This document shows positions 3,091 through 42,155 of a stretch of DNA of 64,000 nt, piece by piece. The stretch is from Flexithrix dorotheae DSM 6795. Lineage in GTDB: Bacteria; Bacteroidota; Bacteroidia; Cytophagales; Flammeovirgaceae. The position numbers and the translations under genes were made by a program. A model generated the notes under the pieces. That model had not been told where the DNA came from. It saw only the letters and a list, made by a program, of their open reading frames with translations, and searched no databases. Each line of letters begins with the position of its first letter. Positions within the stretch are counted from its first letter, which is position 1. The stretch is taken from contig NZ_KB903465.1 of the NCBI RefSeq assembly GCF_000379765.1, forward strand, positions 374,807 to 438,806. Direction: 5' to 3'.

Positions 3091-3786
3091 TCAGGGATTA
3101 GAAATCTTGGTAAGGTTTTCGGTTACCAGCTGCCCATCGAACAGATGAATGACTCGCTGACTGTACTCTGCCGCTGCCGATGAATGGGTAACCATAATAA
3201 CTGTTGTACCCATTTCGCTTAGCTGTACTAATAATTCCATTACTTCCTGGCCTCTTGCGGAATCAAGGTTTCCGGTTGGTTCATCGGCAAGAATTAGTCT
3301 TGGTTTTCCCACAACGGCTCTTGCCACTGCCACCCTTTGTTGCTGGCCTCCAGAAAGTTGCTGGGGGAAATATTTTCTTTTGTGGGCCACCTGAAGACGC
3401 TCCATAATCTCATCTACCCTTTTTTTCCTTTCTGCAGATGGAATTTTCAGGTACATCAGCGGGAGCTGAATATTTTCATAAACTGTAAGTTCATCGATGA
3501 GGTTAAAGCTTTGGAAAACAAAACCAATATTGTTTCTTCTGAGGTAAGCCCTTTTTTTACTTGAAGCTTTGGCCACTTCTTCATTTTTAAAATACAATTG
3601 TCCACTGGTGGGAACATCGAGTAGTCCAATAATATTGAGCAAGGAGGTTTTTCCACAGCCTGATGGCCCCATAATACTAATAAACTCCCCTTCCTTTATA
3701 TTAAGGTTAATATTGCTTAGTGCAACTGTGTCAATTCCAAAATTTGAATATACCTTATCTACATTTTTTAGTTGAATAAGCATCAC
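3091..3786 (-). CDS. ABC transporter ATP-binding protein, MacB/LolD type
   Basis: Cytoplasmic ATPase of 231 residues, the usual length for the LolD/MacB group. Walker A is GPSGCGKTS (residues 40-48), the signature LSGGQQQR lies at 145-152, Walker B LILADE at 165-170 followed by PTGNLD, and the switch His is in VMVTHS. All catalytic motifs are intact. It is translated just ahead of the permease at 678-3086 (4-base gap), which it should energise. A second ATG follows the first directly (MMLIQL), so the true start could be 3 bases later. Confidence 0.95.
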   Translation of the reverse strand: MMLIQLKNVDKVYSNFGIDTVALSNINLNIKEGEFISIMGPSGCGKTSLLNIIGLLDVPTSGQLYFKNEEVAKASSKKRAYLRRNNIGFVFQSFNLIDELTVYENIQLPLMYLKIPSAERKKRVDEIMERLQVAHKRKYFPQQLSGGQQQRVAVARAVVGKPRLILADEPTGNLDSARGQEVMELLVQLSEMGTTVIMVTHSSAAAEYSQRVIHLFDGQLVTENLTKISNP

Positions 3787-37908: not shown

Positions 37909-37992
37909 TACCAGGAGCGGGACTTGAACCCGCACGTCCCAAGGGACACAAGATTTTAAGTCTTGCGTGTCTACCAATTCCACCATCCCGGC
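37909..37992 (-). tRNA. tRNA-Leu (anticodon UAA)
   Basis: 84 bases on the minus strand starting GCCGGGATGGTGGAATTGG. The anticodon loop in CAAGACTTAAAATCTTG reads CTTAAAA, giving UAA. The variable arm TGTCCCTTGGGACGT forms its own stem, as in class II tRNAs. The T arm is GCGGGTTCAAGTCCCGC and the acceptor pairs with TCCTGGT, discriminator A. CCA is not encoded. Confidence 0.95.
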
Positions 37993-38041: not shown

Positions 38042-38114
38042 AGCAGGAGACGAGATTCGAACTCGCGACCCCCACCTTGGCAAGGTGATGCTCTACCAGC
38101 TGAGCTACTCCTGC
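38042..38114 (-). tRNA. tRNA-Gly (anticodon GCC)
   Basis: 73 bases on the minus strand starting GCAGGAGTAGCTCAGCTGG. The anticodon stem-loop CACCTTGCCAAGGTG gives GCC. The T arm is TCGCGAGTTCGAATCTCG and the acceptor closes with CTCCTGC, discriminator T. CCA is not encoded. It lies 49 bp before tRNA-Leu and is probably in the same transcript. Confidence 0.95.
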
Positions 38115-38221: not shown

Positions 38222-38650
38222 CTAATGGGTAGTTTTTCCTTCATACATTTTGGTAAACACACTATCCACCGGTTCCCAAAGTTCTATCTTGTTTCCCTCC
38301 GGATCCATGATATGAGCAAACTTACCATATTCGAAGGTTTCCAGTTCGCCAACTATTTGTACACCCTCCTTTTCCAGCTGCTCCAGCAAATCTTCTATAT
38401 TATCCACCCGATAGTTTACCATAAAATCCTTTTTGGAAGGCTCATAATATTTTGTAGATGCATCCATTGGGCTCCATTGCAAATAAGCCTTTTCATCTGG
38501 TTTTTCGGTTTTTCTAAACTCAAACAATGCCCCATATTGATCGGTATTCAGACCAAGTTGAGTGTTGTACCACTCTTTCATTTTATCGGGATTTTCGCAT
38601 TTAAAAAAAATCCCTCCTATTCCGGTTACCCGTCCTTTTCCTTTTGCCAT
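38222..38650 (-). CDS. VOC-superfamily (glyoxalase-like) protein
   Basis: Cytoplasmic protein of 142 residues with the two beta-alpha-beta-beta-beta halves of the vicinal oxygen chelate fold. It opens RVTGIGGIFFKCENPDKMKE, and the C-terminal half has GKFAHIMDPEGNKIELWEPV, with Glu in a metal-ligand position typical of the family. Members include glyoxalases, dioxygenases and resistance proteins; the substrate cannot be told. A terminator at 38715-38756 separates it from the thioesterase group, so it is likely its own transcript. Confidence 0.85.
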   Translation of the reverse strand: MAKGKGRVTGIGGIFFKCENPDKMKEWYNTQLGLNTDQYGALFEFRKTEKPDEKAYLQWSPMDASTKYYEPSKKDFMVNYRVDNIEDLLEQLEKEGVQIVGELETFEYGKFAHIMDPEGNKIELWEPVDSVFTKMYEGKTTH

Positions 38651-38714
38651 ATTTTTGTTTTTTGATGAGGTAATGGTTTCAATTTAACCATTCAAAAAGT
38701 CTATTGCAAAAAGA

Positions 38715-38756
38715 AAAATCCTGACCATATTGGTTTTTCCACCTGGTCAGGATTTT
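38715..38756 (-). terminator. Terminator after the thioesterase gene
   Basis: AAAATCCTGACCA and TGGTCAGGATTTT form a 13-bp perfect stem with a 16-base loop, followed on the minus strand by T-rich sequence. It ends the TetR/MBL/thioesterase transcript. Confidence 0.85.
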
Positions 38757-38784: not shown

Positions 38785-39294
38785 TTAATTTCTTTTTAAG
38801 GCTTTGGCGATTTGGTAAACCCTGCTTTCAAAAGAATCATTTTGCCCGTTCAAGCTTTCAATTTTCACCAATCCCAAAAGGTTATGCATCTTTTCAGGAA
38901 AAACTGATCTTTTTCCACTTCGCAAATCTATGGCTACATAATCCGCCCATAAGACTGCCTTTAGCTCTGTTTTGTCTTTATTAAACATCTGCATCTCTAC
39001 TTTTACAGTACTTTCATTAAAACCGATTAAAGCACTTTGGATAACCACTTCTTCCATTAAATTGGCCGGACGGAAATAGGAAATCTGATTTTGCCTGACT
39101 ACAAAACCAATCCCCTGTTCCTTGGACATTTTAAAAAGATCAAGGTCATAGTATTTGATGAGATGATCTTCCCTGGCATTCACAAAATAATCTAGATAGC
39201 GTGCATTATTCAGGTGCCCATAGGGATCGCAATCCTGAAACCTGATTACTGACTTACTTTCTGGTTTTTTAATTAATTCCTGTGTTAATTCCAT
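38785..39294 (-). CDS. Hotdog-fold acyl-CoA thioesterase
   Basis: Cytoplasmic protein of 169 residues of the 4-hydroxybenzoyl-CoA thioesterase group. The signature IRFQDCDPYGHLNNARYLDY (about residues 17-37) carries the catalytic Asp in D-P-Y-G-H-L-N-N. It should hydrolyse an acyl-CoA or related thioester. It lies 68 bp after the MBL-fold gene on the same strand and ends before a strong terminator. Co-occurrence with a TetR regulator suggests a role in fatty acid or aromatic acyl metabolism or in detoxification, which is inference. Confidence 0.88.
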   Translation of the reverse strand: MELTQELIKKPESKSVIRFQDCDPYGHLNNARYLDYFVNAREDHLIKYYDLDLFKMSKEQGIGFVVRQNQISYFRPANLMEEVVIQSALIGFNESTVKVEMQMFNKDKTELKAVLWADYVAIDLRSGKRSVFPEKMHNLLGLVKIESLNGQNDSFESRVYQIAKALKRN

Positions 39295-39362: not shown

Positions 39363-40151
39363 TCAGGCTGAGAAAGCATAAGAATCTCCTTCTTTCAAAA
39401 ATTTTAATCCATTAAATTTCAGTGATTTAAGTTTATCCACAGGCTCTGAATAATGTTTGAAGGAATTGATATGCACTGGAAATACCAATGCAGGATTCAA
39501 TAGTTTTGTCAATTCATCCAGCATTTCCGCATTAAGGGTTAGAGGGCCTCCAAAACGGTTTCCCAGCACACCACCCATGTTGGGGATTAAAATATCTGCT
39601 TTTCTGTTTTTTAGCTTATTCCTTACTTTTTCATTGAGGATAGTATCCCCAGTAATATAAATACTAGTATTTTCAAACTGATATTGAATATTAATCCAAT
39701 AGCCATTTACTCCTCCAGCCAGCACAGAAGAAAAAAGATTAGCACCATGAACTGCTGGCATAGCCTCCACTTCAACTTCCATTTCACCTTTCTGAAAGAT
39801 CATTTTCTCGCCATTTTTCAATTTTTTTATATCCAATGGGGAAATGGTGCTTAACTTTTTGAGGGCATTTTTATGCGTAATTATTTTAGCATCAGATTCA
39901 ATTTTTTTTAATCCTTCAGCATCTAAATGATCCTCATGTGCATGGGTAATGAGCCAAAGATCGATGTCTTTAAAATCGTATTCTGCAAATTCAGGAGCCG
40001 TTATTCTTTTGGATTTAAAGAATCCATAATCCTGAAGTGTTCCTTTTTGACACAACACAGGATCGCAAGCTATCCTCAATCCCTGGTAATACATTACCCA
40101 GGTTGCCCCTCCAATCCATTTAAAGTGTAAGTTTTTGAAATTAGCTCTCAT
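39363..40151 (-). CDS. MBL-fold metal-dependent hydrolase (UlaG/RomA-like)
   Basis: Cytoplasmic protein of 262 residues with the metallo-beta-lactamase fold. The metal motif HAHEDHLD (His70, His72, Asp74, His75) is intact; further ligands lie in VHGANLFSS and YITGDTIL, and PVHINSFKHY is near the C-terminus. This is the L-ascorbate lactonase-like / RomA group of MBL hydrolases. It follows the TetR gene by 43 bp, and a palindromic operator (40160-40171) lies 9 bp before its start codon. In several bacteria such genes are de-repressed by a TetR partner; the substrate is unknown. Confidence 0.88.
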   Translation of the reverse strand: MRANFKNLHFKWIGGATWVMYYQGLRIACDPVLCQKGTLQDYGFFKSKRITAPEFAEYDFKDIDLWLITHAHEDHLDAEGLKKIESDAKIITHKNALKKLSTISPLDIKKLKNGEKMIFQKGEMEVEVEAMPAVHGANLFSSVLAGGVNGYWINIQYQFENTSIYITGDTILNEKVRNKLKNRKADILIPNMGGVLGNRFGGPLTLNAEMLDELTKLLNPALVFPVHINSFKHYSEPVDKLKSLKFNGLKFLKEGDSYAFSA

Positions 40152-40159
40152 GATTATTT

Positions 40160-40171
40160 GACCGATCGGTC
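40160..40171. promoter_or_regulatory. Palindromic TetR operator before the MBL-fold gene
   Basis: GACCGATCGGTC is a perfect 12-bp palindrome within ATTTGACCGATCGGTCTGTC. The 21-bp context matches the reversed site at 40794-40805 at 17 of 21 positions. It lies between the tetR stop codon and the MBL-fold start. Confidence 0.75.
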
Positions 40172-40194
40172 TGTCTATGGTTAAAAAAATAGCC

Positions 40195-40770
40195 TTAGCT
40201 ATCCAGAATTAATTCAACTGATTCTCTAATGGCTTCCCAGTTTTCCACATCATGATGGATTCTTGAAAGTAAAAATGCACCTTCTATCAAGTTAAAAATA
40301 ACCTTTGCTCTCCTTTCTCCCTCATCTATTCCATTAAGTTCCAGGTAAGTTGCCAGACTTGTTTCCCATTTTCTGGCTGCATTACTGCAGGCTTTTCTAA
40401 TTTCTTCATTCTGGTTTGAAATTTCCAGAGCCACCGGGGAAACCGGACAAGCACTTCTAAACTCAGTTTTTATCAATCGATCAATCAGGTTATCGATTAA
40501 GGCAGAAATCCCTTTGATAGCGGTTTCCTGGTTTCTCATCACCCTGGCCCAATCTTTCAATTGTCTTTTACCTGCATGATTAATGGCAGCTACCACCAAT
40601 TCGTCCTTGGTTTTAAAGTGATGGTACATACTTCCCTTCTTCCCTTTGATTCCCGCTTTTTCCAATATCTCTGCTACACCGGTTCCATAATAACCTTTCT
40701 GCTCTAATAATTGGGCAGTCACCTCAATGAGCACGTCCTTTATCGATTTTTTTTCTTCTACTTGCATCAC
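40195..40770 (-). CDS. TetR-family transcriptional repressor
   Basis: DNA-binding regulator of 191 residues. The N-terminal helix-turn-helix is LLEQKGYYGTGVAEILEKAG followed by KKGSMYHHFKTKDELVVAA, the standard TetR_N signature (about residues 12-60). The C-terminal ligand domain resembles the LmrA/YxaF group (EFRSACPVSPVALEISNQNE). It heads a minus-strand group with the MBL-fold and thioesterase genes. Two copies of a GACC(A/G)ATC(A/G)GTC site, one in its own promoter and one before the MBL gene, point to self-repression and control of the group. Its predicted -7 box ends 6 bases before the first ATG, so the mRNA may be leaderless or use the second Met. Confidence 0.92.
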   Translation of the reverse strand: MMQVEEKKSIKDVLIEVTAQLLEQKGYYGTGVAEILEKAGIKGKKGSMYHHFKTKDELVVAAINHAGKRQLKDWARVMRNQETAIKGISALIDNLIDRLIKTEFRSACPVSPVALEISNQNEEIRKACSNAARKWETSLATYLELNGIDEGERRAKVIFNLIEGAFLLSRIHHDVENWEAIRESVELILDS

Positions 40771-40775
40771 TCCAA

Positions 40776-40807
40776 CAAATATAAAAACAAACAGACCAAT
40801 CAGTCAA
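40776..40807 (-). promoter_or_regulatory. Promoter of the tetR operon with embedded operator
   Basis: On the minus strand TTG (40807-40805), a spacer of 21 bases, and TATATTTG (40783-40776), a full match to the -7 box. The operator GACCAATCAGTC (40794-40805) fills the spacer and covers the -33 element, so a bound repressor would block RNA polymerase. Confidence 0.65.
40794..40805. promoter_or_regulatory. TetR operator in the tetR promoter
   Basis: GACCAATCAGTC differs from the perfect palindrome at 40160-40171 at two positions. It overlaps the -33 element of the promoter. Confidence 0.7.
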
Positions 40808-40859: not shown

Positions 40860-42155
40860 CTATTCATTTTTAAATATCCTGCCATCCTTCATCACAAAAG
40901 TAACCTTTTCCATCACCTGAATATCTTTTAAAGGATCGCCATCCACTGCCACAATATCTGCTAATTTTCCAACTTCTATTGACCCCAGCTTATCTTCTAC
41001 CTGTAGCATTGTCGCTGCCACACTGGTAGCCGACTGAATAGCCTCCATGGCAGGCATGCCTACTTCCACCATATAACCAAACTCCTTCCAGTTTTCACCA
41101 TGAGGAAATACCCCGGCATCAGTTCCAAAGGCTATTTTAACCCCGCGTTTATAGGCTTTTGAAAAGGTTGTTTGAATCATAGGTCCAATTTCCAAGGCCT
41201 TGGGAACAATGATATCAGGATAATATCCGGGAATTTTAGCCAGTTCCTCTACAGATTTTCCTGCAGTTATAGTCGGGACATAATAAGTACCATGCTCAAT
41301 CATCAGATCCATTACCTCTTCAGTCATTTTAGTACCATGCTCTATTGAAGTTATTCCTGCCAGCACGGCTCTTTTCATTCCTTCTGCCCCATGTGCATGA
41401 GCTGCGGTGATCATTCCATAATCATTTGCGGTTTCCACAATTGCCCTAATTTCCTCTTCGGCAAACTGGGGCCTTTGCCCATCTTTGGCGACACTTAAAA
41501 CACCTCCTGTAGCCGTAATTTTAATCACATCTGCACCATTTTTATACCGCTGTCTTACCGCCTTTCTTGCTTCATCAGTCCCATTGATTACACCTTGCTT
41601 GGGTCCTGGGTCCCCCATCAGGTCAAATTTCACTCCATTGGTAGGGTCGGCATGCCCTCCGGTAGTGGCAATGGATTTCCCGCTGGTATAAATTCTTGGC
41701 CCTTCAATATAGCCGGCATCCACCGCTTTTCTCATGGCAATATTCACTCCGCTTCCTCCCAAATCTCTCACCGTAGTAAAACCAGCCATCAAAGTCCTTT
41801 TCGCATAAATCGTTGACCGGAAAGCAATATCTGCTTCATTCATATTAAACCTTTCCATGTACCTGTTTTTGCTGGTTTCGTTTTCTATATGCACATGCAT
41901 ATCCATCAGACCTGGCATAACTGTTTTATCTTTCAGGTCAATTACCCTATCATCCGTCCCACCTTCCTGAAAACCTTTTTCCACTCCTGTAATCTTATTT
42001 TTTTCCACAATGATGGTCATCTCTTTCATAGCAGTATTGCTCTTCCCATCAATTAATAATCCACATTGTATATAGTGCTTTTGAGCAAGTGACAGATTTC
42101 CCAAAACTGAGAAAAAGAGAAAGAAAGCAAAGGAGGTTATTTGATATTGCATCAT
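40860..42155 (-). CDS. Exported amidohydrolase (prolidase/imidazolonepropionase-like)
   Basis: Protein of 431 residues with a signal peptide (about 1-24, ending LGNLSLAQ). It is a TIM-barrel metal hydrolase: first metal motif MDMHVHIEN, candidate carboxylated Lys in ADVIKITATGG, second-metal ligands in TAAHAHGAEGMKRA and SIEHGTKM, and the catalytic Asp in FGTDAGVFPHG. In the amidohydrolase superfamily this arrangement is found in Xaa-Pro/Xaa-Arg dipeptidases and related enzymes (Sgx9260-type). It likely works in the periplasm on dipeptides or cyclic amides. It is a single gene, 89 bp upstream of the tetR start. Confidence 0.9.
   Translation of the reverse strand: MMQYQITSFAFFLFFSVLGNLSLAQKHYIQCGLLIDGKSNTAMKEMTIIVEKNKITGVEKGFQEGGTDDRVIDLKDKTVMPGLMDMHVHIENETSKNRYMERFNMNEADIAFRSTIYAKRTLMAGFTTVRDLGGSGVNIAMRKAVDAGYIEGPRIYTSGKSIATTGGHADPTNGVKFDLMGDPGPKQGVINGTDEARKAVRQRYKNGADVIKITATGGVLSVAKDGQRPQFAEEEIRAIVETANDYGMITAAHAHGAEGMKRAVLAGITSIEHGTKMTEEVMDLMIEHGTYYVPTITAGKSVEELAKIPGYYPDIIVPKALEIGPMIQTTFSKAYKRGVKIAFGTDAGVFPHGENWKEFGYMVEVGMPAMEAIQSATSVAATMLQVEDKLGSIEVGKLADIVAVDGDPLKDIQVMEKVTFVMKDGRIFKNE

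Follow-up and report, generated by a model that had tools for sequence, protein, structure and literature searches.

The window, that is, the whole stretch of 64,000 nucleotides of Flexithrix dorotheae DNA that was analysed, carries on its minus strand open reading frames in the order amidohydrolase, tetR, MBL-fold hydrolase (MBL), thioesterase, and VOC. A sequence search of the window located two short palindromes on either side of tetR, GACCGATCGGTC at 40160-40171 and GACCAATCAGTC at 40794-40805, which are treated below, in slightly longer form, as candidate operators 2 (op2) and 1 (op1), respectively. The features of the locus are as follows:

40860-42155, minus strand: amidohydrolase gene, which adjoins tetR in the same-genus relative G001 as well
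40805..40807, minus strand: -33 TTG, overlapping the edge of op1
40793..40806, minus strand: candidate op1, TGACTGATTGGTCT, about -35 to -22 from the predicted transcription start; conserved sequence
40776..40783, minus strand: -7 box TATATTTG of the predicted tetR promoter, unchanged in G001
40195..40767, minus strand: tetR, predicted repressor of the LmrA/YxaF type, 190 aa from the ATG (PF21993, 4.3e-21; PF00440, 2.7e-12); in-frame GTG at 40770
40183..40189, minus strand: T-run of 7 T, its end 10 nt short of op2, with the short stem ATAGC/GCTAT in front of it
40159..40172, minus strand: candidate op2, AGACCGATCGGTCA, separated from the tetR stop codon by 22 nt and from the MBL start by 7 nt
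39363..40151, minus strand: MBL-fold hydrolase gene, 262 aa, between op2 and the thioesterase gene (PF13483, Lactamase_B_3, 1.3e-15)
38785..39294, minus strand: 4HBT_2 thioesterase gene (FadM/YbgC-like), 169 aa (PF13279, 7e-20)
38708..38756, minus strand: predicted intrinsic terminator 3' of the thioesterase gene, with a hairpin of -21.6 kcal/mol (z -3.8) followed by a U-run
38222-38650, minus strand: VOC gene, outside the predicted operon

Since the predicted terminator lies between the thioesterase and VOC genes, the latter was rejected as a member of the operon, and the reading of the locus as a NemR/GloA-like system, in which MBL and VOC would form a glyoxalase-like pair, was abandoned for that reason. 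The terminator is listed by folding prediction, whereas a pattern scan admitting only loops of 3-8 does not list it. Two tRNA genes, at 37909-37992 and 38042-38114 of the minus strand, are situated just downstream of the cluster. The layout of the operon predicted from its genes, sites, and spacing is P(op1)-tetR-(T-run, 10 nt, op2)-MBL-thioesterase-terminator.

By its domains, the tetR product can be classified as a TetR protein of the LmrA/YxaF group: its TetR_N helix-turn-helix (PF00440) scored 46.7 bits (Pfam cut-off 24), its LmrA/YxaF-like C-terminal domain (PF21993) 75.5 bits (Pfam cut-off 27), and its best PDB match was YxaF (1sgm, 3.9e-15). Through this closest PDB sequence and the common domain PF21993, the LmrA/YxaF (QdoR) regulon of Bacillus subtilis resembles the present operon. 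YxaF/QdoR represses its own gene via an operator at its own promoter and is released by quercetin (PMC8481877). The target of the B. subtilis regulators is a dioxygenase, and the sections of that paper drawn upon here report no operator behind the regulator stop codon, unlike what is seen in F. dorotheae (PMC8481877). The family profile of the thioesterase matches YbaW (1njk) at 2.3e-16, plus YbgC entries, a profile match in common with the FadM (YbaW)/YbgC thioesterases; the broader PF13279 model was passed, but the YbgC/FadM subfamily model TIGR00051 (NCBIfam) gave 60.4 bits, below its cut-off of 68.7. Within the DCDxxxHLNN region D21, C22, D23, H27, L28, N29, and N30 are invariant in 19 aligned sequences. 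The best PDB match of the MBL protein is the isothiocyanate hydrolase SaxA (6brm, 7.9e-11), a distant likeness in sequence.

An earlier note on this DNA, made from its letters, had described the two palindromes as near-identical, and in matching orientation they do have 17 of 21 bases in common (counted by eye). Allowing at most 2 mismatches, the first 12-mer has 3 matches in the 64-kb window (expected 0.55), a number reached in 2 of 100 shuffles; the second, less symmetric 12-mer is not significant alone, with 6 matches in the 64 kb against 3.4 expected, and 14 shuffles reaching 6. Random recurrence elsewhere in the genome was also checked: in the 9.54-Mb genome the 17-base consensus TTGACYGATYGGTCTGT fits only these two sites at 0-1 mismatch (2 at 0 and none at 1), followed by 2 sites at 2 and 45 at 3 mismatches. 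The resulting total of 49 at up to 3 mismatches is below the 59 obtained with a reversed control pattern and thus gives no sign of a wider regulon, an idea dropped for want of any further genomic match with 0-1 mismatches. One of the two sites with 2 mismatches is located just upstream of another TetR gene.

The second palindrome had been assigned to the tetR promoter, and it indeed starts at the -33 TTG (40807-40805), upstream of TATATTTG (40783-40776) on the minus strand. TATATTTG and the TTG fit a promoter of the sigma-A type with TAnnTTTG at -7 and TTTG/TTG near -33, in line with the Bacteroidota consensus TAnnTTTG/-33 TTTG given in the cited parts of PMC7366714 and PMC9723704, and both elements are unchanged in G001; the position of op1 between -33 and -7 holds as a sequence prediction. 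With the -7 box placed at -12 to -5, as in Flavobacterium (PMC9723704), the predicted tetR leader would be 4 nt to the ATG at 40767 or 1 nt to the GTG at 40770, so that the nearly leaderless tetR mRNA proposed in the earlier note stands, as a prediction. The same source puts leaderless messages at 5.5% in F. psychrophilum (PMC9723704), and leaders shorter than 10 nt make up about 3.7% in B. thetaiotaomicron (PMC7366714).

The whole cluster recurs in identical order in G001, a Flammeovirgaceae MAG and the only same-genus genome drawn by the searches. Its op1 is kept as an unchanged 24-base block, with the -7 box also unchanged and the flanks diverged, and its op2 differs by one C-to-T change; both sites are thus kept inside diverged intergenic DNA. 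The same order as in the window is present in L214, a locus from an uncultured Cytophagales MAG, in which tetR is 39% and the thioesterase 46% identical, and the MBL is 48% identical to the window MBL in BLAST and 44% in the alignment. In L214 the MBL and thioesterase genes are separated by 2 nt, compared with 68 nt in the window, TGACCGATTGGTCT lies upstream of tetR, AGACTAAATGGTCT lies between tetR and MBL, and a T-run ends 10 nt before AGACTAAATGGTCT (spacing counted by eye). An additional TGACCGATCGGTTT occurs downstream at 3398. The motif expected at orthologues of the three genes hence accompanies them in all three loci, those of the window, G001, and L214.

These three are the only loci seen in which MBL stands between tetR and the thioesterase gene. 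A search by gene order found some MBL-family match in 186 of 291 genomes, and among the 30 loci kept only the window and G001 showed tetR and the sites; among 199 loci with a thioesterase match, MBL matches were confined to the window and G001, both represented by several copies of the locus, and L214. A contig search with the MBL protein as the query gave no match. MBL as the usual target was therefore ruled out, being rarely beside tetR and the sites in either collection, and the idea that the pair of MBL and thioesterase is the controlled operon survives in part: it describes the locus here, in G001, and in L214, but the usual partner of tetR is the thioesterase alone. In the MBL of G001 (L002:2121-2903) the metal motif THAHEDHLD reads THAHHLD, two residues of HxHxDH missing in frame, which may mean either loss of function or an assembly error; L214 keeps THNHEDHLD. 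Another MBL-fold gene, in L059 (1507-2838), directly precedes a TetR gene; that locus is without a GACY-type site and has one loose ATACC-like match at 1192.

For 21 of the 101 unique thioesterase genes in the loci collected to that point, a TetR gene on the same strand lay no more than 250 nt upstream; the other 80 include those of the window and G001, where MBL intervenes. A scan of GTDB genomes, seeded with the tetR-linked thioesterases, was then considered through its best 80 of 480 relatives; tetR was present in 54 of these 80 loci, including those of Aquimarina, Winogradskyella, Roseivirga, Flavivirga, and Ichthyenterobacterium, a proportion that gives no prevalence because of how the scan was seeded. 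Adding the window and G001 to the 21 and the 54 gives 77 modules, or 75 after removal of two duplicates, with L214 outside the set. On sequence grounds the commoner unit is tetR plus thioesterase without MBL, the thioesterase being the recurrent target.

Operators were called with a 13-point palindrome score at a cut-off of 10. Among the 75 modules, which share descent, op1 was called in 71, op2 in 69, and both in 66, whereas none of 77 thioesterase genes without tetR directly upstream reached the cut-off, and shuffles reached it in 40 of 2300 cases for the op1 regions and 14 of 2300 for the op2 regions. As the score was set after viewing the first 23 modules, the fairer test is the named set, not used in setting it, in which op1 was called in 52 and op2 in 49 of 54 modules. 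The tetR-thioesterase gap is 27 nt or less in four of the five named modules that lack op2, and 231 nt in the fifth. One module counted as lacking op1 (L175) showed a full site when a different stretch was searched; its tetR frame is shortened though both operators are present, by a frameshift or a sequencing error.

The type of the operators follows a residue of the TetR recognition helix, the one before KG. It is Thr or Ser in 51 of the 66 two-site modules, and in all 51 the second base of both sites is T, one op1 having an imperfect second half. In the remaining 15 the residue is Ala, Lys, or Pro, and the second base is never T; here op2 has G in 15 of 15, and op1 has G in 12 and A in 3. 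Thr/Ser therefore corresponds to ATACC..GGTAT and Ala/Lys/Pro to AGACC..GGTCT; the window TetR has Lys and that of L214 Pro. A second TetR encoded in the window's own genome (L343:2391-3056, on G000:C25) has TKGS, and its gene is flanked by two ATACC-type operators, the second of which stands 10 nt beyond a T-run and in front of a FabF-like ketosynthase gene; a locus in another genome, L320, looks alike. This covariation ties both operators to the TetR protein, with counts that are inflated by shared descent. Sites of the same type are known for other TetR proteins, which counts in favour of the operator reading: in Thermus thermophilus, TTHB023 (PfmR) binds the consensus CTGACCGATCGGTCAG at about 2 nM, its sites mapping to fatty-acid genes, and SbtR has the consensus TGACYrnnyRGTCA (PMC7022988). 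These sites belong to another phylum and are found at promoters, and the cited parts of the paper describe no T-run/operator element (PMC7022988). With both palindromes kept in the two relatives of the same order, with the pair present in most modules, and with the covariation of type and helix residue, the proposal that they are operators of this TetR is strengthened, and the protein very likely binds both op1 and op2.

What distinguishes op2 is the DNA in front of it. In 54 of the 69 modules with this site, exactly 10 nt separate op2 from the end of a run of at least 4 T, and in 58 the distance is 9-11 nt, whereas the distance of 10 is found at op1 in only 6 of 71; 8 of the 69 have no run of 4 T. 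The stretch from the tetR stop codon to op2 contains a run of at least 5 T in 53 of 69 modules; 500 shuffles gave 14.2 on average and 26 at most. The offset of op2 from the stop codon is more variable, mostly 16-26 nt, and the following start codon, as read, is 4-38 nt beyond op2 or, in 6 of the 69 modules, overlaps it.

The rule extends to TetR genes followed by other genes. Op2 was found behind 18 of 61 unique TetR genes not followed by this thioesterase, at 10 nt from the T-run in 16; the 18 include the tetR of the window and five loci fetched by T-run/palindrome patterns, and without these five the figure is 12 of 13. Judged by eye from their first residues, the genes after the 18 look like short-chain dehydrogenases, EmrB pumps, thiolase, ketosynthase, hydrolases, and PaaI-like proteins. 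With the five pattern-fetched loci included, a run of at least 5 T in the first 25 nt after the stop codon was present in 64 of 81 TetR genes with op2, 14 of 52 without it, and 163 of 1167 other genes, and 10 nt was the commonest distance in 9 of 10 TetR clusters at 40% identity, 20 of 23 at 50%, and 28 of 36 at 60%. When 178 genomes were scanned freely for TTTT followed after 5-15 nt by a loose ATACC palindrome, with distances taken from coordinates, there was no peak at 10 (11 of 59 rows, against 13 of 59 at 12 nt), many of the rows probably lying in coding DNA; the spacing rule is thus confined, as far as seen, to sites behind TetR genes.

The customary picture of a TetR regulator is that of a switch at a promoter. 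The reading that we favour, with moderate confidence, is that this TetR, bound at op1, shuts its own promoter and, bound at op2, acts as a block to elongating RNA polymerase, and within this best reading we infer binding, repression, an elongation block, a role for the T-run, and a ligand. A TetR dimer of the LmrA/YxaF type at op1, between -33 and -7, would shut initiation, and the same protein at op2, about 20 nt past its own stop codon, would stand in the path of polymerase coming from tetR, by which the enzyme genes would be kept off when the promoter leaks. Lying between tetR and the enzyme start, op2 would be an operator inside the transcribed region if transcription runs on from the tetR promoter. 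A polymerase halted by TetR at op2 is expected to have its RNA 3' end in the T-run 10 nt before this site; the rU-dA hybrid there would be weak, so that the halted complex would readily backtrack or be released. Both sites would be freed, and the thioesterase gene opened, by a ligand, which may resemble an acyl-CoA or be some other metabolite of a hydrophobic or reactive kind.

The geometry is consistent with a known roadblock: an EcoRI roadblock halts RNA polymerase 14 nt upstream of its site (PMC5499547), and the same distance applied to op2 puts the RNA 3' end inside the T-run (-17 to -11), with the reservation that values from EcoRI and E. coli polymerase may not transfer. Removal of roadblocked polymerase in E. 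coli is mainly by Mfd (PMC4132739). Regulators that stop polymerase on their own transcription unit have been described. LacI represses itself by a roadblock at operator O3 (PMC3711431) and so controls its own transcription in the manner proposed here, but it belongs to another protein family, and the portions of that paper cited here mention no T-run rule. C.Kpn2I likewise halts RNA polymerase on its own gene (PMC6237814), but from a site within the regulator coding region and as part of a restriction-modification system (PMC6237814).

A rather doubtful alternative, though the strongest of those considered, is that op2 governs an internal promoter of the enzyme genes, TetR blocking its start site; such a promoter had been postulated for the enzyme pair in the earlier note, and its -7 box might be a degenerate one made up from the tetR stop codon plus the T-run, or be read by another sigma factor. 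Of the 71 modules with op1, 51 have a perfect TAnnTTTG box after it (4.5 expected by shuffling), and in 26 of these 51 the first in-frame ATG is at most 10 nt from the predicted start, a count that favours short leaders through the choice of the first ATG. Near op2 there is no perfect box in any of 69 modules, either in the 60 nt upstream (2.1 expected) or in about 29 nt downstream (0.7 expected), which, with so few expected, amounts to no enrichment and not to proven avoidance. On this comparison the internal promoter is not supported, and was set aside. Boxes with one deviation, which could make up a degenerate promoter, are in fact enriched at op2, in 48 of 69 modules upstream (60 nt; 29.5 in shuffles) and 27 of 69 downstream (13.5). 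Upstream, the majority overlap the T-run and finish 10-15 nt short of op2, reading TAnnTTT with the final G absent in 42 of 55, and 16 of 26 downstream ones begin within the palindrome, in its last bases. These boxes, however, keep no fixed distance from op2, in contrast to the end of the T-run, and a scan for sigma-70-type promoters, despite a weak match (9 of 12) at 40177-40150, found 9 sites against 11.2 expected.

It is improbable that the function of op2 is to cooperate or form a loop with op1, at a distance of 634 bp, or to titrate the repressor, the T-run then being a bent-DNA helper. Two sites of one type do flank tetR in most modules, and the rigid spacing could reflect helical phasing, but the T-run, so regular at op2, is seldom found at op1. 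To our knowledge no looping by this TetR group has been described, which also weighs against this explanation. Least credible, indeed very improbable, is that the op2 palindrome acts as an RNA hairpin before the enzyme start codon and the T-run as the ordinary terminator tail of tetR: op2 is predicted to form a 4-bp hairpin, and in the window and G001 the T-run has the short stem ATAGC/GCTAT in front of it, but over 58 modules RNA stems before the T-run are not in excess (mean z 0.03; score 2.63 against 2.66 in shuffles), and op1, in a promoter, is a palindrome of the same type, both sites changing type with the TetR.

The reading of op2 as an obstacle to elongating polymerase can be taken one step further. 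Tentatively, and as a possibility to which we give less than even weight, the T-run, the 10 nt, and the operator may form a composite element of Bacteroidota TetR operons, a hairpin-less terminator active only with repressor bound: polymerase would be halted by TetR at op2 while the 3' end of its RNA lies in the U-run, and the weakness of the hybrid would turn the halt into release. Operator sites of this type for TetR proteins, self-repression by YxaF/QdoR, and self-repression by roadblock (LacI O3, C.Kpn2I) are already known; among the best-ranked open-licence papers no description was found of the T-run/operator element or of the tetR-thioesterase module.

The loci described here point to a group of Bacteroidota TetR proteins with a second operator behind their own gene, mostly 10 nt past a T-run, and preceding genes for thioesterases, apparent ketosynthases, reductases, and pumps. 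The link of one recognition-helix residue to AGACC or ATACC helps in assigning sites to regulators. Were the composite element real, it would be a repressor-dependent conditional terminator common to TetR operons with unrelated enzymes. If bound TetR ends transcription at op2, the element could be used as a compact genetic switch, and many Bacteroidota operons would become readable by a simple sequence rule.
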